43,814 bases of DNA. Source: Bacillota bacterium (GTDB taxonomy: Bacteria > Bacillota > Sulfobacillia > JAJYWN01). The translations under genes and the position numbers were made by a program. The notes below the pieces were generated by a model. It did not search any database, was not told the origin of the DNA, and was given only the letters and a program-made list of their open reading frames with translations. The DNA lies in assembly GCA_021791495.1 (NCBI GenBank), contig JAJYWN010000002.1, positions 1 to 43,814 of the forward strand, given 5' to 3'. The number at the start of each line of letters is the position of its first letter. Position 1 is the first letter of the stretch. Shown one piece after another: positions 10,157 through 29,906 of the stretch.

Positions 10157-11800
10157 TTGGCCGACCGAGCCTCCCGTGGGTGGAGAAAAACCAGAAAACA
10201 TCGGCGGGGGACGGCGGTCCTTCCCCGCGAAACCTCCGTTCCACCCGAGAGCACCGCGGAGAGCCCTTCGCCCCACATGGACGACGCCCTGATCGGGGCC
10301 AGCGACCTTCCGCCCGAAACCAAACTGGCTGCCGACCTTGAGCCCAACGTCCGGGCGCTGCGGTCGGCCCTCGGAGATACGGCCGACCTAGTGGTTACTC
10401 GCCGGACTAGCTGCGACAAGCGGCTGGCTTTCGCCTTGTGCTATCTGAACGGAATCATCGATGCCAGGGCGATCGAGGAAGCGGTGCTACGGCCCCTCGC
10501 CCGCCGAACGCCTCCCGGGGGCCGCGACGTCACCCTTGCCATTGAAGAAAGCGTGGTCGACGTGGCCTCCTCCAAACGCGCGGCGACTATGGGGGAAGTG
10601 GTGGAGGGCCTGCTCAAAGCGCAAGGAGTACTGTTCATTGAGGGGGCGGCCGCGGCCCTGGTGCTCGAGCTACGAGAGTGGCCTCAGCGTCAGGTGGACG
10701 ACCCTAAGGATGAGGCGGCCGTTCGTGGTCCCGGAGAATCCTTCATTGAGCTGCTGATCACCAATGTGGCCCTGGTACGCCGCCATGTCCGAAACCGTTA
10801 CCTCCGGGTCCGCACCATGGAGGTTGGGGGCGAAACCAAGACCACCGTGGCTCTCCTTTACCTCGACAACCTGGCCGACCCAGACCTGGTGGCCGAGGTC
10901 CGCCGGCGGATTGAAGGAGTTGGGGACCGCAACATCCTAGACAGCGCACACCTGGCGGGGCTGATCAAGGATTCGCCATGGTCGCCCTTTCCGCTACTGT
11001 GGAATACCGAGCGGGTCGACCGTGCTACGGGATACCTCCTGGAGGGACGAGTGGTAATCCTCACCGATGGCAGTCCTGGAGCCATCATCGCCCCGACCAC
11101 ATTCTTCGACCTTTTTGCGGCGCCGGAAGACTACTATTTCAGCTTCTACTACGGTACCATCCTGCGGTTCATCCGCCTGATAAACGCGCTGCTAGCGATG
11201 ACCCTTCCCCCGCTCTACATCAGCCTGGTTTCCTATAATGTGGAGATGCTCCCCACCAAACTGGCCCTATTGATAGCCGGTACCCGCCAGGGCATACCCA
11301 TTCCCGCCCTCATCGAAGTGGTCCTAATTGAGCTGGCGATGGAGGCGCTACGCGAGGCCAGCGTACGTATGCCCCGGGCCATGGGTCAGACTATCGGGGT
11401 GGTGGGTGCCCTGATTCTGGGAACCGCTGCCGTACAGGCCGGCATTATCAGCAACATGATGGTAATTGTGGTGGCGGTTACGGCGATCACCAGCTTCGCC
11501 ATGCCCAGCTACCAATTGGGAGTGACCACGCGCGTCCTAAAGTATTTCCTCGTCGCCTGGGCCGCGGTGTTCGGCACTTACGGGTTGGTGCTGGGTTTTT
11601 CAATTATCCTGGCCCACCAGATCGGCCTGGAATCCTTCGGTGTACCATACTTCTCCCCAGCCGCTCCGGGCACGGCCAAACAGGCGGGCTCCACCTTACT
11701 GCGTTTCCCGTTGTTCCTCCTGCCCCATGAGCCTGGCTATGTCGACCCCCTTGCCAGACGCCACGGTCGGCTGCGCAAGCAGGAGCGTGACTATGAATAA
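10157..11800 (+). CDS. GerA-family spore germination protein, A subunit
   Basis: The 547-residue protein starts at TTG 10157 with GGGAGG about 10 bases upstream. The N-terminal soluble domain (about 60-300) contains the family stretch LAFALCYLNGIIDARAIEEAVLRPL and GRVVILTDGSPGAIIAPTTFFDLF. The C-terminal half has about five membrane segments, including IIAPTTFFDLFAAPEDYY, LLAMTLPPLYISLV, AMGQTIGVVGALILGTAAVQAG and a final hydrophobic pair. Length matches the usual 480-550. Together with the next two genes it forms a germinant receptor in the inner spore membrane, where amino acids, sugars or other nutrients trigger germination. The operon implies sporulation. The germinant cannot be predicted. 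Confidence 0.95.
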   Translation: MADRASRGWRKTRKHRRGTAVLPRETSVPPESTAESPSPHMDDALIGASDLPPETKLAADLEPNVRALRSALGDTADLVVTRRTSCDKRLAFALCYLNGIIDARAIEEAVLRPLARRTPPGGRDVTLAIEESVVDVASSKRAATMGEVVEGLLKAQGVLFIEGAAAALVLELREWPQRQVDDPKDEAAVRGPGESFIELLITNVALVRRHVRNRYLRVRTMEVGGETKTTVALLYLDNLADPDLVAEVRRRIEGVGDRNILDSAHLAGLIKDSPWSPFPLLWNTERVDRATGYLLEGRVVILTDGSPGAIIAPTTFFDLFAAPEDYYFSFYYGTILRFIRLINALLAMTLPPLYISLVSYNVEMLPTKLALLIAGTRQGIPIPALIEVVLIELAMEALREASVRMPRAMGQTIGVVGALILGTAAVQAGIISNMMVIVVAVTAITSFAMPSYQLGVTTRVLKYFLVAWAAVFGTYGLVLGFSIILAHQIGLESFGVPYFSPAAPGTAKQAGSTLLRFPLFLLPHEPGYVDPLARRHGRLRKQERDYE

Positions 11801-12917
11801 CCGCGGGATCAAGCTGGACCGGGCCGACAATCAGGTTCTTGATGGGCGCTACGTGACGGTCTTCTTCTTCTGCTCAACGGTGGGTTTAGGGATCTTCCTG
11901 GGGTCGGCCATCGTTATCGGTGTGGGTCCCACCTACGCTCCCTTCAGTCAGGTTCTGGGTACGGTGTTTACCGGCCTTCTGGTGGTGGGGATGCTGCGAG
12001 TGAACGCTCTCTGTGCCTCAGAGGGGTTCGCTCCCTGGGTGAAACGGACCCTGGGGGCCTACGTGGGAGCCTTATACCTGGCTTCGTTCTACGCGTACTT
12101 CACCCTCGTCATGTCGGCCCACGCCCGTCTCTTTGCCGAGGTGATCCACATGACCGTCTTGACACGGACCCCGGTCATTATCTTGCTCGCCGGGCAGTAC
12201 CTGGCTTCCTATTACCTGGCCGCCCAGGGAGTTGAAACCGTAGCCCGCTTCTTGTATGTCGTTGTTGCCGTGGAGATGCTGATCTACGCCCCGCTATCCT
12301 TTAGCGGACTTACCGGCCTGACCCGGTCGTTCTTACAGCCCGCGCTGCCACCAAGCTTTCGGTCGCTGGCCGAAGGGGTGGTGGCGGGAAGCGCGGCCTA
12401 CGCCGGATACGGCGTGCTTCTGGCGATCCTCCCCGCCGTGATCGAGAGCCAGGCGACCATTTCCCGAGCCTTCCAGGGCCTGGGGTTAGCCGGAGTCTTT
12501 ATGTTGGCGGCGGTGACCGGGACGGTCGGCACCTTCGGACCCGCTGTTGCCCCCTCCTTCGCGTTTCCCTTCATCGAGTACACAGAGGCCATCAGGCTGG
12601 GAGGGATGCTCTCCTTTGTGCACAGGGTCTCATTCGTCTTCATCTCCTTTTGGGTGTTTGCCGTGTTGAAAACAATAGTGATCACCTACCTGGGGCTTAC
12701 ACGAGTACTGACCGGTAGCGCGGGTCTCAGCCAGAAGACCGCCCTGCAATTGACCGCCCTGCTGATCCTGGGTGTCTCTTCCATGCCGCTCCACCTCCAA
12801 TCGTGGATGCAGCTTCTTGCCACGGTGTCCAAGATCGGCGTGGGGTATGGCGCCGCATCCCTGCTTATACTGCTGAGCCTGGGCAGGCGGCGGAGGAGCG
12901 GCGTCCACCATGGATAG
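11793..12917 (+). CDS. GerA-family spore germination protein, B subunit (APC-type membrane protein)
   Basis: The start ATG 11793 has AGGAG 10 bases upstream and overlaps the A-subunit stop by 8 bases; the frame continues upstream but inside gerA. The product is 374 residues with about ten hydrophobic segments, beginning VFFFCSTVGLGIFLGSAIVIG. This is the layout of GerAB/Spore_permease proteins of the amino acid-polyamine-organocation superfamily. In studied receptors the B subunit binds the germinant. The loop YFTLVMSAHARLFAEVIHMTVLTRTP (read in parts) is typical of the family's central region. The C-terminus overlaps the C-subunit start by 8 bases. Confidence 0.94.
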   Translation: MNNRGIKLDRADNQVLDGRYVTVFFFCSTVGLGIFLGSAIVIGVGPTYAPFSQVLGTVFTGLLVVGMLRVNALCASEGFAPWVKRTLGAYVGALYLASFYAYFTLVMSAHARLFAEVIHMTVLTRTPVIILLAGQYLASYYLAAQGVETVARFLYVVVAVEMLIYAPLSFSGLTGLTRSFLQPALPPSFRSLAEGVVAGSAAYAGYGVLLAILPAVIESQATISRAFQGLGLAGVFMLAAVTGTVGTFGPAVAPSFAFPFIEYTEAIRLGGMLSFVHRVSFVFISFWVFAVLKTIVITYLGLTRVLTGSAGLSQKTALQLTALLILGVSSMPLHLQSWMQLLATVSKIGVGYGAASLLILLSLGRRRRSGVHHG

Positions 12918-14070
12918 GAGACTACGCAAGGCCATCGCGGGCTTACTCTCAATAGTGGTGATGGCCGCAAGCGGGGGATGCTGGGATGCTGTGGAAATTG
13001 AGAACCGGGCCCTCGTGTTAGGCCTAGGCTTTGACGAGGATGCCGAAGGCCGGGTATTGGTGAGTGCCCAGGTCCCGACGCCGACAGGCCTGATGGCGGG
13101 CATTCAGGGCGGCGGGGGGATAACTGGTAAGGGGGCCTCCTCTGCGGGAGCGGGATCTGGGAATAGTTTCTCGGTGCAGTCCGAGGGCCAGACCGGGTTC
13201 GAGGCTTGGGGTGACCTGAACTACCGGCTATCCCGCAATATGGACACCTCCCAGCTGCAAGCCATTGCCATTGGCGAGCACCTGGCCCGGTCGGGAATCG
13301 CAAAGGCCGTGGATCTGCTGTACAAAACGCCCCTCATTCCCCGCAGCGTCTGGGTGGTATATACGACCGACGCCGGCCTCTTGATGGCTACGCCCGGGAT
13401 ACAGGAGTCCATGACATCCTCCCATGTCGCCAACTACTTCACCACCGCGAAGGGTGTCTATGGAACCCCGATTCCCGCCCCCCTCTGGCGGTTCTGGGTT
13501 CTTCTCGTGACGCCGTGGACATCGGCCTACCTGCCAATCGTGACCGTAAGCGGGACAGCCCTCCATTTTGCCGGGACGGCCATCTTCAAGGGGGATAGAC
13601 TGGCCGGATTGTTCAATGACCATGAGTCGGCGGCCTTGGCCCTCTTGACCTCCCAGTTCCGGGCGGACGTGGTGCGAGTCTCGGCGGTGGGAAACGGCGC
13701 TTTCGGAATACATGTAACCTCTGCTGGACTGCATCTGGAAACCGACCTGTCTCCCGAGGGACGCCCCGAAATCCGCGCGGTGGTCCGGGTACGGGGTCGG
13801 GTTATGGAGATGACCGATTGGCAAGGGAAACTGGACCCAGATAAGCTCCGCGCGGTGGCGGACTCCCTGGAAGAGCGCCTCTCGCAGGACATGAAGGATG
13901 TGGTTCGAAAGGCGCAAGATCTCGGGGTGGATCCGTTTCTGTTTGGAGACCTGTTTCGGGCCGCCGGAGTCGACAGTTGGTCGCCGGAGTGGTGGTGGCG
14001 GGTCTGGCCCGAGGCAGCTTTCACCGTCAAGGTCCAGGCCTACGTTCAGCCTGGGCGGACGACGCGCTAG
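12910..14070 (+). CDS. GerA-family spore germination lipoprotein, C subunit (Ger(x)C)
   Basis: The 386-residue lipoprotein begins at ATG 12910, overlapping the B-subunit stop. A short signal peptide ends in the lipobox ASGGC with Cys24 as the lipid anchor. GCWDAVEIENRALVLGLGFD is the hallmark opening of Ger(x)C proteins. The rest follows the family's three-domain layout, with LQAIAIGEHLARSGIAKAVDLL in domain 1 and LEERLSQDMKDVVRKAQDLGVDPFLFGDLF near the C-terminus. It contributes the outer-leaflet lipoprotein of the germinant receptor. Its stop overlaps that of the convergent molybdoprotein gene by 4 bases, and the flanking direct repeats suggest the operon arrived as a unit. Confidence 0.95.
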   Translation: MDRRLRKAIAGLLSIVVMAASGGCWDAVEIENRALVLGLGFDEDAEGRVLVSAQVPTPTGLMAGIQGGGGITGKGASSAGAGSGNSFSVQSEGQTGFEAWGDLNYRLSRNMDTSQLQAIAIGEHLARSGIAKAVDLLYKTPLIPRSVWVVYTTDAGLLMATPGIQESMTSSHVANYFTTAKGVYGTPIPAPLWRFWVLLVTPWTSAYLPIVTVSGTALHFAGTAIFKGDRLAGLFNDHESAALALLTSQFRADVVRVSAVGNGAFGIHVTSAGLHLETDLSPEGRPEIRAVVRVRGRVMEMTDWQGKLDPDKLRAVADSLEERLSQDMKDVVRKAQDLGVDPFLFGDLFRAAGVDSWSPEWWWRVWPEAAFTVKVQAYVQPGRTTR

Positions 14071-24518: not shown

Positions 24519-24681
24519 AGCTTTCGTGGAACTGCACAACCGGGAATGGCGCGTGGAGAAGAACGGTTTCCTCACTCCGTGGGGGCCCGGCGGGTGTGGC
24601 TGGAGAACTCAGAGTTGAAGGCGTCCGACTGACAACCTTGTGTCCAGAGTACTGGGTGCGGTACACCAACGGACGAGGACA

Positions 24682-25425
24682 CTATTGTCTCCAGTCCATT
24701 CTGACCGTGGAAATGTACCCCAGAACTATGGAGCTAATTGCCAACATGGCTGCGTCATGAAGTGGAAAGACGCCGCTGAATAGAACCGTTCGCAAGCCAT
24801 GTGCCGCATAGGTTAGAGGCATGATTGAGCTGAGGTATGCCAACGCGGGGGCGAGTGTTTCGGTCGGGACAAACACCGGGGACAGCAACAAAGTGACACC
24901 CAACACGAAGTTGGTCAGAAGCGCTGCCACACTCGGATTTGGCGAGAACACTCCAATCGCTGCCCCTACACCCGTCATAGAAAGCATGGAAAGCAGGGCG
25001 ATGACGAAGAACCCCAGTGACAAGTGGAAGTGTACATCGTAGAGTTGGGAGCCTGCAATAAGCACGACTAACACGGAAGGCAGTGACGAGAGTGCCGCGA
25101 TGACAAGTACCGATGAACTAAGCATCCACCGTTGGACGGGAAGAGCACCGTAGTATTCCACCTCGTTATTAACCTTGGCCCAAGAAAGACGTTCAGCCAA
25201 TGTGGTTACGGGACCAAAGACCAAAGAGAGCACTGCATTACCCGTGACCAGATAGGCGATTCTGGAAGAGTCATATATACCTGCCAACTTGAAGAAGTAC
25301 ATCATGATCACCGGAAACAAAGCACTCATCAGTAGGGCCGGTACCCAAAGGCGCCTGTACATTGCAAGCCTTATTCTAACAAGAACCGAAAGTTGGGTAA
25401 CGGTATTGTAATTATGCACTTTCAT
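24682..25425 (-). CDS. ABC-2 type transporter permease of the RiPP island
   Basis: The 247-residue protein starts at ATG 25425, overlapping the ATPase gene by 14 bases. It has about six hydrophobic segments (LWVPALLMSALFPVIMMYFF, IAYLVTGNAVLSLVFGPVTTL, MLSSSVLVIAALSSLPSVLVVLI in part, and others). The pattern fits ABC-2 exporters (drug, bacteriocin or lipid export and self-immunity). A cytosolic loop with EYYGALPVQRWM is the usual coupling region. With the adjacent ATPase it would form a homodimeric channel. In this cluster it most likely exports the mature peptide or protects the producer. Codon choice and base composition look less GC-rich than in the pst or mol genes. Confidence 0.85.
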   Translation of the reverse strand: MKVHNYNTVTQLSVLVRIRLAMYRRLWVPALLMSALFPVIMMYFFKLAGIYDSSRIAYLVTGNAVLSLVFGPVTTLAERLSWAKVNNEVEYYGALPVQRWMLSSSVLVIAALSSLPSVLVVLIAGSQLYDVHFHLSLGFFVIALLSMLSMTGVGAAIGVFSPNPSVAALLTNFVLGVTLLLSPVFVPTETLAPALAYLSSIMPLTYAAHGLRTVLFSGVFPLHDAAMLAISSIVLGYISTVRMDWRQ

Positions 25426-26332
25426 CCCTCATCTTGGCATAGACGTCTTGAAGGGTGCCCGTTGATATGGTTAGTGCCTGGATTGATTCAGGGGGTACGA
25501 CGTCAGAAAGAGTCGCAAGGAAACGGGATAGATTCGCTCTGGCTATTTGGATCTGTAACCTGTCTTCACTTACCCTAGTCGCATCCCAAGGAAGAGTCAC
25601 CGACAGGTTTGGTGCCGTCGACGCCAAGGTTACTATCATGGTATCTCCTAACCGCGCCCGCAGTTCTGTTGGTGTCCCAATTGCAGTAACCCTGCCATCG
25701 TTTATGAACCCAACTCTGTCCAAGACTTGCTCAGCCTCTAACACGTCGTGGGTTACCAGGATGACCGTGGTACCGAATTCATGATTTCTCCTCCTAATCT
25801 CATCCCAAAGTCGACGTCTGTTTGTAATGTCCAGATGAGTTGTCGGTTCATCCAGGATTAGCAGGGGACGATAACCCACAAGTGCAGCGCACACTCCTAC
25901 GAGCCTTCGAGAACCACCCGACAGGGCTGAGAATAGCTTTGATGCCTGCTTGGTTAAGCCGAATAGGTCCATTAGCTCATTGGTGCCTTGCCTGGCCAGT
26001 GCAGGCGGTATACCCCTGAGAAGCGCGGTGTATTCAATGCATTCACTTACCTTCAGGTCAGAAAAGGGTGTGGGATTCTGAGAGAGATAGGCTGAGACTT
26101 TGGAAGGGACATCCCTCTGAGCCAAGATGTCATGCCCGTGTATTGTGATCGAACCACTGTCGGGCTTAAGAAGCCCGAGTAGGAGCTTGACAAACGTCGT
26201 CTTTCCTGCGCCGTTGGGGCCAAGAAGGCCAAACACCTCTCCTTGCCTGACCGAGAGAGTAACAGAGTCTATCGCCTTGACACCTGTCAAGTACGACTTC
26301 GATAGATCCCCGGTAGCTATGGTGTCTGTCAT
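25412..26332 (-). CDS. ABC transporter ATP-binding protein of the RiPP island
   Basis: The 306-residue protein from ATG 26332 has Walker A GPNGAGKTT, signature ALSGGSRRLVGV, Walker B LLILDEPTTHLD and switch His in LVTHDVLEAEQ. This places it in the multidrug/bacteriocin exporter group (CcmA/DRA-like). The Q-loop is YLSQNPTPFSDLKV. After about residue 220 there is a C-terminal extension (IVTLASTAPNLSVTLPWDATRVSEDRLQI in parts), as in BcrA/NodI-type ATPases. The signature has SGGSRR rather than the common SGGQ/MRQR. It is coupled to the permease and begins 14 bases after the GNAT stop in the direction of transcription. Confidence 0.92.
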   Translation of the reverse strand: MTDTIATGDLSKSYLTGVKAIDSVTLSVRQGEVFGLLGPNGAGKTTFVKLLLGLLKPDSGSITIHGHDILAQRDVPSKVSAYLSQNPTPFSDLKVSECIEYTALLRGIPPALARQGTNELMDLFGLTKQASKLFSALSGGSRRLVGVCAALVGYRPLLILDEPTTHLDITNRRRLWDEIRRRNHEFGTTVILVTHDVLEAEQVLDRVGFINDGRVTAIGTPTELRARLGDTMIVTLASTAPNLSVTLPWDATRVSEDRLQIQIARANLSRFLATLSDVVPPESIQALTISTGTLQDVYAKMRDESA

Positions 26333-26346
26333 TTACTGCCCCCCGG

Positions 26347-27237
26347 CTAGAGAGAATAGACCTTGTACTTCAGCAACGGGACCGCGCCGTACCTACAAGC
26401 CACTCGGGTTGCCACCAGGTTTCGCTCGTCGATGTCTACCAGTACTCGGCCGTCCACTGCAGCTGCTTCAAGGGCTGACGCAATCAGGAGTTTCGTTACC
26501 CATGTTCCTCGAAAAGGCTTTCGGACTCCGACTCCACATAAGATCCCTTCGTACGGCGAGAAGTTGAAGAAGCCAGCGGCTGTATCATTTACGAAGAGGA
26601 CTCTCAAAGTCCCTGGTGCTGCATCATCAAAGTCACTGGCTTTCATCGGCACGAAATTGGGTGCGTCCTGGATGGTTTCATTGTAGACCTCTATAAAGAG
26701 GTCAATGGGCACATCGGGGACTTGGTCGATATGCCATCCCCCGCCAAGTTGATCGTCAAGGGAGCAAGGTGAGATAGCCAATTCCACCATGCTACGTTGG
26801 GCAATGTGTCTGAGGGAGAACCCGGCCTTGACTAAGTCATCTCCAAACCACGGGCCATCACGCATGGTGAGGGGGTGAAAAGACTGGCGAAACCCGTCCT
26901 CCCGTGCAGGATCGACAATTGTGATAAGCCATGCCTTCGGACGTGGGCTAATCTGAGCGATGGTCTCCTCCAGAAACTGTCGTATAGCAGGCAATTCCTG
27001 CACTAATTGGGCGCGGCTAGTTGATACAGGTCCCAGGATCAGCCTTACACCAGGTCTGGCCTCCAGCAGTCCCAAAAGTGCCCCCGGGGTTCCCGCCTCA
27101 AATACCCGGCAGCGCCCTTCATGTGCCGCCTTGCCCAAAGCCTTGATTCCCGCGAGTGAGAGAAGTGGATACGAAGATCCCATGGATGACAGGAGTCTTT
27201 CCTCTACGCCCTCGCTCCATTCGACCTCTTGCACCAA
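26347..27237 (-). CDS. Tandem-GNAT-like protein of the RiPP island
   Basis: TTG 27237 is preferred: AGAGGAGAG at 27252-27244 lies 8 bases upstream, whereas a TTG at 27255 precedes that site. GTG 27234 is also possible. The product is about 296 residues. The C-terminal third is a GNAT fold: GFFNFSPYEGILCGVGVRKPFRGTWVTKLLIASAL, in parts, then VLVDIDERNLVATRVACRYGAVPL. The acetyl-CoA loop is degenerate (RKPFRGTWVTK instead of QxxGxG/A). The N-terminal half ends WFGDDLVKAGFSLRHIAQRSMVEL and looks like a second, weaker GNAT repeat. It lies between the radical SAM gene and the transporter. It may acylate the peptide or confer immunity; this is inference. Confidence 0.75.
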   Translation of the reverse strand: MVQEVEWSEGVEERLLSSMGSSYPLLSLAGIKALGKAAHEGRCRVFEAGTPGALLGLLEARPGVRLILGPVSTSRAQLVQELPAIRQFLEETIAQISPRPKAWLITIVDPAREDGFRQSFHPLTMRDGPWFGDDLVKAGFSLRHIAQRSMVELAISPCSLDDQLGGGWHIDQVPDVPIDLFIEVYNETIQDAPNFVPMKASDFDDAAPGTLRVLFVNDTAAGFFNFSPYEGILCGVGVRKPFRGTWVTKLLIASALEAAAVDGRVLVDIDERNLVATRVACRYGAVPLLKYKVYSL

Positions 27238-27265
27238 GGAAATCTCTCCTCTCAACCTTTCTGCG

Positions 27266-28648
27266 CTAGGTAAGGCGCGTTCTCTTCTGTCTCACGTTGT
27301 GGCACCGCGGGTCGGGTGCCCAAGCTGTCCCAGTCGCTTTGATCGAGTCCCTTAGGCATCTGCCCCGACGCGTGCATTCGTCGAAGGTTGCGCAATCAAA
27401 ACAGGCAGTCCCAAGATACTTCTCTCTTGGAGGCTGGACCAGCTCCATCATGGTGTCACTTTGCCACAGTGAGATCAGAGACTGCTCAGCAAGGTTTCCA
27501 ATCCGGAAGAAATCCAAAGGTATGGACTCGCAGAAGCCCACATCTGCGTTGGGGTAAATGACTAGACTCTCTCGGCCGGCCGTGCAGCGGGCCCTCGACA
27601 CGAAAGCCTTTTCGCGTTCAATGTCCGACAACTCGGTGTGGTCTGCCCGGGCGTTAAGCCTGACCTCGGCGTCTGGATGTTTGTCTTGAAGGCCTTTTAC
27701 GATGTGTTCTGCTCTACGTCTCTCCTCGGGAGAAATGAAAAGCTCGTCAGAATGCCTATACAAGGATCTGCCGTAAGAGGTGAAGATCACTTTGCCAGTC
27801 CCTGCAGAGATCATTGCCTCTCCCAGTTCTGGGAGGTGACCGATGTTGTAGGGAGTCAGGACGGTTACAGTCTTAACCCGTATCCCTAAAGATGATGCTA
27901 GTTCGACTTGGTCTCTGATGGCCTTCCCATGATCCTGGAAACCGAGCATGTACTGACTGTACTGTCCATCCAGTGAATCAACGCTGAACTGAATCTGCCT
28001 CAGGCCGATCTCGGACAGTCTCTCGAGAACACGTCTACCAAGGATTGACTTGGTCGAAGTCTGGACGTGAATTCCCCGACACAGGAACGCGTCAATAACC
28101 TCGATGATATCCTTCCTTGCAAACGGGTCACCGCCGCTCAATTGCATACCGACACAGCCAGACTCAGCGCAGTCCTGGGCAATCTTGTCGATCTGCGGCA
28201 GATCCAGTTCGATGTGACCACCGATTCTGCGTTCCGCGTAACAATACTTGCAGTTGAATGCACACCTGAAGGTGGTCACATATACAAAAGAAGCAGGGTT
28301 TGCCAAACGCACCGGAATGTGAGGTGTAACGGGCTGAAAGACGAATGAGGTGGGGTCAATGGGGAGACGTTTGAACCATGAAAGCCGTTGGTCGAGAGGT
28401 GAAACCAAAACACCTTTATTGTCGGAAGTCAGGGTCGACAAGAAGCTGAGAGTCTCCTCAGCAGGCAAATCCGTCAGGAAGCACAGCTGGGAGGCAACTT
28501 CCGCATCGGTGGTGGGCTTCTGGTAGAGGCTCAGGGCTATTGCCCTCATGGGGTCAATGTACTCCACCACCCCTTCCTCAACGTCTATTACAACTACTTG
28601 GTCTCCATCACGTCTTAACCTGATCCAAGACCCCAATACACGCTGCAC
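27266..28648 (-). CDS. Radical SAM/SPASM peptide maturase with PqqD-like N-terminal domain
   Basis: GTG 28648 follows AGAGGTG by 10 bases and gives 460 residues; a TTG further up at 28729 has no ribosome site. Residues about 5-80 look like a PqqD-type RiPP recognition element: VVVIDVEEGVVEYIDPMRA, TTDAEVASQL, EETLSFLSTL. The radical SAM core starts at Ala119 with CAFNCKYC (Cys129, 133, 136), which binds the [4Fe-4S] cluster, then QLSGGDPFARKDI. The C-terminal SPASM-like region has seven cysteines, in RARC, GFC, TACFDC, DEC, GRC and PRC, for auxiliary clusters. Enzymes built this way form thioether or carbon crosslinks on peptides. The 49-residue peptide just upstream is the obvious substrate. 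Confidence 0.9.
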   Translation of the reverse strand: MQRVLGSWIRLRRDGDQVVVIDVEEGVVEYIDPMRAIALSLYQKPTTDAEVASQLCFLTDLPAEETLSFLSTLTSDNKGVLVSPLDQRLSWFKRLPIDPTSFVFQPVTPHIPVRLANPASFVYVTTFRCAFNCKYCYAERRIGGHIELDLPQIDKIAQDCAESGCVGMQLSGGDPFARKDIIEVIDAFLCRGIHVQTSTKSILGRRVLERLSEIGLRQIQFSVDSLDGQYSQYMLGFQDHGKAIRDQVELASSLGIRVKTVTVLTPYNIGHLPELGEAMISAGTGKVIFTSYGRSLYRHSDELFISPEERRRAEHIVKGLQDKHPDAEVRLNARADHTELSDIEREKAFVSRARCTAGRESLVIYPNADVGFCESIPLDFFRIGNLAEQSLISLWQSDTMMELVQPPREKYLGTACFDCATFDECTRRGRCLRDSIKATGTAWAPDPRCHNVRQKRTRLT

Positions 28649-28754
28649 AGCTTCTTCACCTCTTGGCCGGATTGAGTCGGGACAGAGGGTGTCTGAACAC
28701 GACCGGCTTCGACTCGTTCGACTCAACAACTGGCAACTGCTACCTTAGTGTGGG

Positions 28755-28802
28755 AAAAGGCCCCTTCCGCGCTAGGCGGGGACATCACACCCGAAAGGGC
28801 CT
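28755..28802 (-). terminator. Attenuator-like hairpin between precursor and maturase genes
   Basis: On the minus strand AGGCCCTTTC (28802-28793) pairs with the complementary arm at 28768-28758 in a roughly 10-bp stem with one wobble pair, followed by TTTT. Placed 13 bases after the precursor stop, it would let precursor mRNA exceed enzyme mRNA, as is common in peptide clusters. Confidence 0.6.
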
Positions 28803-28814
28803 CGGTCACGTAGA

Positions 28815-28964
28815 CTAGTTTTCGCCCTTGCCCCCGTTGAGGCAGGAATCACCACACCCAGGCTGGCATCCACCAAAACAGGAATGGTTCCTAACCGAGC
28901 AGGACATAGCCTCCTGCAAATGGTAGGTTCTCATCAACTCCTTCAGGACCAGGAGTTCACTCAT
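28815..28964 (-). CDS. Putative RiPP precursor peptide, 49 residues, C-x3-C repeats
   Basis: ATG 28964 is 7 bases after a near-perfect AAAGGAGGT (28980-28972). The frame is open to a GTG at 29024, but that start lacks a ribosome site. The leader (about 1-20, MSELLVLKELMRTYHLQEAM) is helical and acidic. The core carries Cys22, 29, 33, 37 and 41, the last four in CFGGCQPGCGDSC, and ends LNGGKGEN. The exact three-residue spacing, small residues between cysteines and lack of a signal peptide are typical of thioether-bridged peptides such as sactipeptides and ranthipeptides. It also recalls the Cys-every-fourth-residue peptides known elsewhere. The gene directly precedes the radical SAM maturase. 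I could not assign it to a named class. Confidence 0.8.
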   Translation of the reverse strand: MSELLVLKELMRTYHLQEAMSCSVRNHSCFGGCQPGCGDSCLNGGKGEN

Positions 28965-29530
28965 TCGCAATACCTCCTTTCGCATGGCTTCCTTCAGATT
29001 GGGACATGGAGACTCGGTCGCCACACCCGACTGCAGACACCTCTCTGCCCCTTATCAAAAGATACCAGAAATTACGAATGTTTCCTTTTAACTTCAGATT
29101 AGTGATAACAAAAAGTTAACATTAGGTGCAGCCCATAACTCCTTAAGCTTTGATTTACATCACTGGCTCGGATACCATTGTCGCTTAACCTCAGCCCGGG
29201 CTGATGCAACATTTCTGGGATGACCGATACATGAACGGTTTCTCCTTAGGCATTGAGTGTTCCGCATCAGGGTGCCTCGCTGCTTCCATCGTCCATCGGG
29301 TTAGAAGTAGTTGCGTCGCCAGGTCTTCACCAGACACGTCTCGTTTCTTGGTCCTTCCTGCGTCGTCAGAGCCAGTTCTGGCCCTTCCTGGGGGTTCAGG
29401 ACTCGCCGCGGCCAGCCCAACGAGCTGAAGCCGTTTTCTGTTTACCATGACCTCCGACAATGCTAACTGGAGCGAGTGGGGCAGTATGGCTCGACATCCC
29501 AGTGTGCTACTTTGGACGACAGGAGTGCCA
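28965..29530. other. AT-rich leader of the precursor gene and non-coding flank
   Basis: Bases 29041-29160 are markedly AT-rich against their surroundings and probably hold the precursor promoter. TGGTATCTT (about 29067-29059 on the minus strand) resembles an extended -10 but has no matching -35. A perfect 14-bp palindrome TCAGCCCGGGCTGA lies at 29191-29204. The rest to 29530 has open frames on both strands but none with a ribosome site or a recognisable protein. Confidence 0.4.
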
Positions 29531-29906
29531 TAGCTACGGAACGCGCAGAAGACCGGAGACATCCCTCATGGAGAGCTGCGGAAACTGTTTATGCAGGTGC
29601 TGAGGCTATGCCAAAAGGCCGGCCTGAAACGTGGATTATCGAAGAGAAGGCATCCAGCTGTAACCAAAGTGGTGCCCCCTTCAACGCCAGTTCTCCGTCA
29701 GGACCGCCCTACGGACCGAGCCGGGAGTCAGCGGTTTTCTGGGATACGGCCAAATCAGGAATTCTGGTGTGCAGTTCAGCGGAGTTGACGAAGATGGACC
29801 CCAGGACTCCGCTGAAGCGGGAGCCCACTACTCGGAACTCATTGAGCACGAGGTCGCAGACGCGTTATCCCGCGCTGAGGTCTGTGATGCACAGCTATGC
29901 GGCTAG
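29531..29906 (+). pseudogene. Probable decayed IS1182-type transposase fragment
   Basis: Two segments in different frames resemble parts of DUF772/IS1182-type transposases. Around 29560-29620 one frame reads PHGELRKLFMQVLRLCQKAGL, like the FVQVLRLCREAGL helix. Around 29826-29906 another reads YSELIEHEVADALSRAEVCD and then AQLCG, like the ELLxRAEAVDAEED region. Stops and frame changes separate them, and their spacing exceeds that of an intact enzyme. No terminal inverted repeats were found. The assignment is from memory of the family and is tentative. Confidence 0.35.

Follow-up and report, generated by a model that had tools for sequence, protein, structure and literature searches.

A cysteine-rich RiPP precursor beside a radical-SAM/SPASM maturase in a Bacillota bacterium, with a predicted tandem of un-nested i to i+3 thioether rings

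The precursor gene and its cluster

The window, i.e. the whole stretch of 43,814 nucleotides of Bacillota DNA that was analysed, carries on its minus strand a small cysteine-rich ORF and, downstream of it in the same orientation, a radical-SAM/SPASM gene and genes for a GNAT-like protein and an ABC transporter pair. The features of this locus are as follows:

28973..28978, minus strand: AGGAGG ribosome-binding site of the precursor, recognised by its sequence, 8 nt 5' of the ATG at 28964
28815..28964, minus strand: precursor peptide of 49 aa, with the translation MSELLVLKELMRTYHLQEAMSCSVRNHSCFGGCQPGCGDSCLNGGKGEN*
Precursor residues ~1-21: leader MSELLVLKELMRTYHLQEAMS, followed by the core at residues ~22-49
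Precursor core: CxxG/S units C29FGG, C33QPG, C37GDS and C41LNG
28745..28804, minus strand: stem-loop rich in G+C and carrying a T run, in the gap between the precursor and maturase genes, a weak candidate for an attenuator
27266..28648, minus strand: radical-SAM/SPASM maturase of 460 aa, with a likely GTG start (the ORF is open to a TTG at 28729)
26347..27255, minus strand: GNAT-like protein of 302 aa as listed, its true start being possibly a few codons further in (PF00583, E 0.012, under cut-off)
25412..26332, minus strand: DrrA-like ABC transporter ATPase, exporter or immunity (PF00005, 1.2e-28; TIGR01188, 1e-61, under the curated cut-off)
24682..25425, minus strand: ABC-2 type permease, partner of the ATPase (PF01061, 2.9e-13)

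In the minus-strand translation of 28815-28964 the cysteines occupy positions 22, 29, 33, 37 and 41, and the core pattern is C-x6-C-x3-C-x3-C-x3-C with FGG, QPG and GDS as x3 intervals, which bears out the C-x3-C-x3-C-x3-C core with an earlier Cys reported in a previous sequence-only reading of this DNA. Three consecutive four-residue Cys steps were obtained in 0.2% of core shuffles and in 0.08% of whole-peptide shuffles. The ORF at 28964-28815 is a genuine gene for a RiPP precursor, the stronger support for its being a gene coming from Paenibacillus, where every homologous maturase is preceded by a pair of small Cys-rich ORFs matching the window ORF in leader start and core (see below). The peptide had no match in Pfam and none over cut-off in NCBIfam, where a single match was at chance level, and the search for precursor families with CxxxC repeats that the sequence-only reading had proposed, run on NCBIfam, returned no match over cut-off to an established family with known crosslinks. 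The precursor belongs to a radical-SAM-modified RiPP that is claimed by no curated model.

A GAGGTG is present at 28662-28657, 5' of the maturase GTG at 28648. The hairpin between the two genes was considered as an attenuator and set aside, its folding being no better than that of shuffles (z -0.44); a search of Rfam gave no match. Among the four other cluster genes neither a protease nor a regulator was found, the streptosactin family being marked by a GggC-type protease and an Rgg/SHP regulator. For the GNAT-like protein, for which gene content allows a possible role as peptide acyltransferase or in self-protection, no homologue was present among 154 genomes of the window's class and no solved structural relative was found, while its structural model (pLDDT 37) was unusable.

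The maturase and its relatives

The CxxxCxxC motif of the maturase corresponds to C129/C133/C136, its SPASM cysteines are C355, C373, C416, C419, C425, C431 and C449, and the Pfam domains over cut-off are PF04055 (Radical_SAM, 1.9e-21) and PF13186 (SPASM, 3.6e-8). A SPASM radical-SAM enzyme therefore adjoins a Cys-containing precursor, the arrangement by which sactipeptide clusters are recognised. The scores stayed far under the cut-off of every curated maturase model listed, the best being GeoRSP (78 bits against a cut-off of 400), and the sactipeptide-maturase model StsB, possibly the streptosactin enzyme and used here as stand-in for GggB, gave 36 bits against a cut-off of 625. The maturase's predicted fold is nearest to those of PqqE, SkfB (a sactisynthase) and SuiB (streptide synthase), a likeness to be read as class assignment only because the mean pLDDT of the model is 61. 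Residues 20-75 are predicted to form two strands followed by three helices which, together with a weak PqqD match in one Paenibacillus relative (E 0.28), suggests that the N-terminal region is a fused RRE of the RRE/PqqD kind.

SPASM enzymes acting on Cys-dense precursors also yield ranthipeptides (freyrasin/PapB, including the Cys-Asp beta links of Paenibacillus freyrasin; thermocellin/CteB; NxxC), and an alternative reading of the locus is that Cys sulfur is joined here to beta or gamma carbons (e.g. of Asp39, Asn26, Asn43 or Ser40) instead of alpha carbons. The comparison of maturases points away from such products: the 25 families that score best with the window maturase include AlbA and StsB and already fall to 36 bits, whereas TIGR03974 (SCIFF) and NF047865 (PapB), with cut-offs of 425 and 340, are absent from them. 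Furthermore, against the maturase profile SkfB (E 1.3e-12, 50 bits) outranks the ranthipeptide synthase CteB (1.8e-6, 30 bits), a ranking that agrees weakly with the formation of sactionine bonds; PqqE and MoaA outscore both.

With the maturase alone as query, nothing was retrieved in a close-relative scan of genome contigs and viral contigs. Relatives of the maturase numbered zero in the 61 nearest genomes, zero in 154 genomes of the same class and one in 398 genomes of the phylum, with a second in the order of that one. A plasmid of Paenibacillus peoriae HS311 encodes a split homologue (31.7% identity) with two unannotated Cys-rich ORFs upstream, and the window and P. peoriae maturases as joint query retrieved intact homologues in P. 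terrae, P. rhizophilus, P. sp. BJ-4 and P. zanthoxyli. At these five loci (L003 for P. peoriae, and L007-L010) the maturases are 31-33% identical to that of the window over nearly their full length, and two small Cys-rich ORFs are located just upstream in every case. The P. peoriae gene (L003:4899-6328) is broken by a frame change and annotated as two RefSeq CDS, being intact in the four other species.

A further maturase branch is represented by two genomes of the window's phylum, L016 and L027 (28% and 26% identity), whose precursors end in CDQCANGARW and CDQCTNGAHW and hold just two cysteines, one of them in CxxG. Rhizobial plasmids (25%) encode precursors that end in ...GCDSCTVCPCMICW, without CxxG, and more distant homologues were found in Bacteroidales (24-25%). 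Bit scores against the window maturase decrease from Paenibacillus (215-228) through L016/L027 (170-179) and the rhizobia (~150) to Bacteroidales (90-94). Viral contigs scanned with alignment A1 gave no match, and phage records gave just partial, low-identity radical-SAM matches.

Several of these loci have an organisation of their own. L016:1477-3187 and L027:1477-3186 constitute a second cluster type, with the precursor end CDQC[AT]NGA[HR]W, a related SPASM maturase and a 293-320 aa protein of no assigned kind; by eye, these clusters also encode a terpene-cyclase-like or prenyltransferase-like repeat protein. The rhizobial clusters (L004:4545-7767 and L005:4535-7770), with precursor end GCDSCTVCPCMICW, carry two different radical-SAM proteins in tandem. 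In Phocaeicola faecalis (L012:5571-5792), an ORF resembling a precursor, with a leader of the double-Gly type and a CTVSGSGT core twice repeated, adjoins a distant maturase relative and a bacteriocin-type ABC transporter.

Position of glycine relative to cysteine

The Paenibacillus clusters resemble that of the window in their end-to-end homologous maturase, similar leader start and CxxG core; they differ in having two precursors per locus and a longer leader with a GLSKRxLLRELID insert, and in the absence of window-like ABC/GNAT genes from the immediate neighbourhood. Their leaders start M-[SR]-[EMA]-L..[LI][KR].LL, the start shared with the window leader being MSEL..LK.LL, and over the first 11 residues MSELLVLKELM (window) and its best match, MSELQELKDLL, are identical at 7/11 (shuffle p ~8e-4). 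Considering that pairwise similarity between precursors is modest (single-comparison E 0.001), the case for their homology is made chiefly by synteny with a homologous maturase and by the shared motifs.

The strict x3 spacing that the sequence-only reading took for a signature does not hold beyond the window: Cys spacing in the relatives mixes x2 and x3, and x3 was dropped as a conserved signature. As judged from the compared sequences, it is C-x-x-G, and not x3 spacing, that defines these precursors. Gly occurs at +3 of Cys in 25/32 core positions and Gly or Ser in 28/32 (testable cysteines being those whose +3 residue is not Cys), counts that come from related and not independent sequences, in the same set in which the motif was noticed. 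At -3, -2, +1, +2, +4 and +5 the frequency of Gly is 5-22%; it reaches 44% at -1 because of C-x3-C coupling. In a control separating the two positions, Gly was present at +3 in 10/11 cases where +4 is not Cys, and at -1 in 0/13 cases where -4 is not Cys. Gly is therefore placed relative to the preceding Cys, and its placement relative to the following Cys was rejected. In each of the 13 precursors, including the two of the more distant branch (L016 and L027), the last Cys lies in C-x-[NTS]-G, and one aligned +3 site swaps Gly and Ser (C46QTG/C46NSS). Taken by itself, the window peptide shows no significant surplus of Gly/Ser at +3 (p 0.09-0.14). There are exceptions to the CxxG rule: the cysteines of the Paenibacillus CxxC pairs (CGQC, CINC, CTSC) have Cys at +3, and C22 of the window precursor has Arg there.

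This distribution also bears on the ranthipeptide alternative. The precursor offers Ser, Asn and Asp as acceptors, whereas the conserved +3 residue is Gly; as Gly has no beta carbon, ranthipeptide bonds are disfavoured at the +3 sites. An Asp acceptor at a fixed short distance from each Cys, as in freyrasin, is absent, the +4 residues of the window cysteines being N, C, C, C and G. We consider a ranthipeptide distinctly unlikely. Of the two partners put forward in the sequence-only reading, glycine is favoured by the comparison, and Asp39, which is not conserved, falls away.

Another possibility is that the cysteines bind a metal or Fe-S cluster, or form a redox peptide, and that the maturase introduces a different change (e.g. 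a C-C bond or epimerisation), considering that regular CxxxC and CxxC spacing is able to bind metals and that maturases near PqqE catalyse non-thioether changes. Against this stand the SPASM maturase beside every precursor, the variation of spacing (x2, x3, x6) among relatives while the +3 Gly stays, and the L016/L027 precursors, which have just two Cys, of which one lies in CxxG, and whose maturase is related; we regard this explanation as improbable.

Predicted product and setting of the cluster

Streptosactin contains two un-nested sactionine rings of four residues each (PMC13361665), Cys25-Ser28 and Cys31-Gly34, both i+3 (PMC8172795), which are formed from C to N (PMC8172795; PMC8326336; PMC13361665). 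This peptide (GggA/GggB of Streptococcus thermophilus, GGG subfamily) is likewise the product of a SPASM radical-SAM enzyme, and its Cys-i+3 Ser/Gly rings match the CxxG/S units of the window precursor, where the four-residue spacing from Cys to Gly/Ser is found in the core and is conserved in relatives. It differs in having two rings, as against four or five predicted here directly head to tail, and the window cluster is without a protease gene and contains an ABC pair and a GNAT-like gene. The window peptide is most likely akin to streptosactin in ring spacing, and at most a putative member of its family. The earlier opinion that the peptide fits no nameable class stands insofar as no curated model claims the precursor, and gives way where streptosactin, with its Cys-Ser and Cys-Gly rings from i to i+3, provides a topology that fits it (PMC8172795).

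Built on the observed gene, its linkage to the maturase, the homologous clusters and the conservation of CxxG, our preferred reading, held with moderate confidence, is that the window precursor would give rise to an un-nested sactipeptide whose thioether rings, each from i to i+3, are arranged in tandem and made by the radical-SAM/SPASM enzyme in a streptosactin-like manner. The predicted rings are C29-G32, C33-G36, C37-S40 and C41-G44; alpha-carbon rings at i+3 are proposed because acceptor identity (Ser/Gly) and offset in streptosactin coincide with the conserved units, and both bond type and position are drawn from sequence and from this analogy. A fifth ring, C22-R25, is possible: CS[VMT]R recurs among the precursors, with CS[MT]R in the Paenibacillus B precursors, and the residues known to accept sactionine bonds include Arg (PMC8326336). 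The unmodified, untagged peptide has a calculated monoisotopic mass of 5288.352 Da, from which each ring would subtract 2.016 Da (to about 5280.29 with four rings and 5278.27 with five).

A classical nested hairpin, or a mixed topology in which some Cys donate further away and others are free or in disulfides, deserves consideration since nested hairpins make up the majority of known sactipeptides; in addition, the Paenibacillus CxxC pairs may be disulfides or metal ligands, and C22 is set apart by six residues. Such a topology leaves the CxxG at +3 unexplained. Furthermore, in type I hairpin sactipeptides such as subtilosin and thurincin H an acceptor arm is located C-terminal to the donor Cys block, whereas here just eight residues (LNGGKGEN) follow the last Cys and therefore no such arm is available. 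This topology is judged unlikely, though not negligibly so.

The sequence-only reading had also likened the peptide to Cys-every-fourth-residue families, and the curated Cxxx-repeat peptides, predicted targets of radical-SAM enzymes (TIGR04114, TIGR04117 and TIGR04118, AC3_0185), are, like the window peptide, short and Cys-rich with closely spaced cysteines. The best weak matches of the window and Paenibacillus peptides do fall on these families, all of them under cut-off (8.7-20 bits against 20-50): TIGR04114 gave E = 2.5 with the window peptide (8.7 bits against 20), the best values among Paenibacillus precursors were 4e-4 for TIGR04118 and 7e-4 for TIGR04117, and in the closest relative the scores were 20.3 against 35 and 19.7 against 50 bits. 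Short Cys-rich composition alone could produce such scores. A search of the phylum with TIGR04118 gave sub-cut-off matches only, two of which, with their small ORFs read, look like chance, and a search of the literature for AC3_0185 brought up only text unrelated to it. That the window peptide belongs to these families and shares their chemistry is very improbable, and the likeness amounts to weak sub-cut-off matches.

For the tandem sactipeptide, the following course can be envisaged. The helix-like N-terminal leader would be bound by the maturase, probably via the RRE-like region fused at its N terminus. A 5'-deoxyadenosyl radical, generated at the radical-SAM cluster, would take the alpha-hydrogen from the residue at +3 of each core Cys, after which the sulfur of that Cys, bound to an auxiliary cluster of the SPASM domain, would join to the alpha carbon, resulting in consecutive un-nested four-residue sactionine rings. 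The ring at the terminal invariant CxxG would probably be first, with the maturase proceeding from C to N as for streptosactin. The leader would then be cut off by an unlinked protease. As far as gene content indicates, the ABC pair would export the product, the GNAT-like protein may acylate it or protect the producer, and the product probably acts as an antimicrobial or in fratricide.

More broadly and more tentatively, an unnamed maturase family in Paenibacillus and other Bacillota may read a CxxG/S code, laying adjacent un-nested four-residue sactionine rings, 4-5 in the present case. If so, ring number would be readable from precursor sequence, the rule would predict ring positions for this family, and mass spectrometry could test ring topology directly. 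Rings of the streptosactin type, from i to i+3, would extend to a wider enzyme clade, with an un-nested sactionine chain longer than the two rings of streptosactin and beyond streptococci. Such a rule would aid genome mining, because current models miss these precursors or leave them unnamed, and it would provide a handle for the design of tandem small rings.

The host is a spore-former, as the sequence-only reading had supposed, with Spo0A over cut-off (404 bits) and GerA/B/C-like ORFs on the same contig; the latter, three ORFs at 10157-14070 of the window, were read by eye as a gerABC-like spore germination operon. The RiPP cluster is present in one copy in the genome. Its G+C content is 0.51-0.55 (0.50-0.55 over window 24600-29900), compared to 0.59-0.65 in flanking genes and ~0.62 for the contig, and its GC3 is 0.52-0.68, compared to 0.71-0.81 in flanking genes (a range that leaves out a formate-dehydrogenase-like stretch). 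Because both values are lower than those of its flanks, the cluster looks like an acquired island, which suggests that it was gained horizontally.
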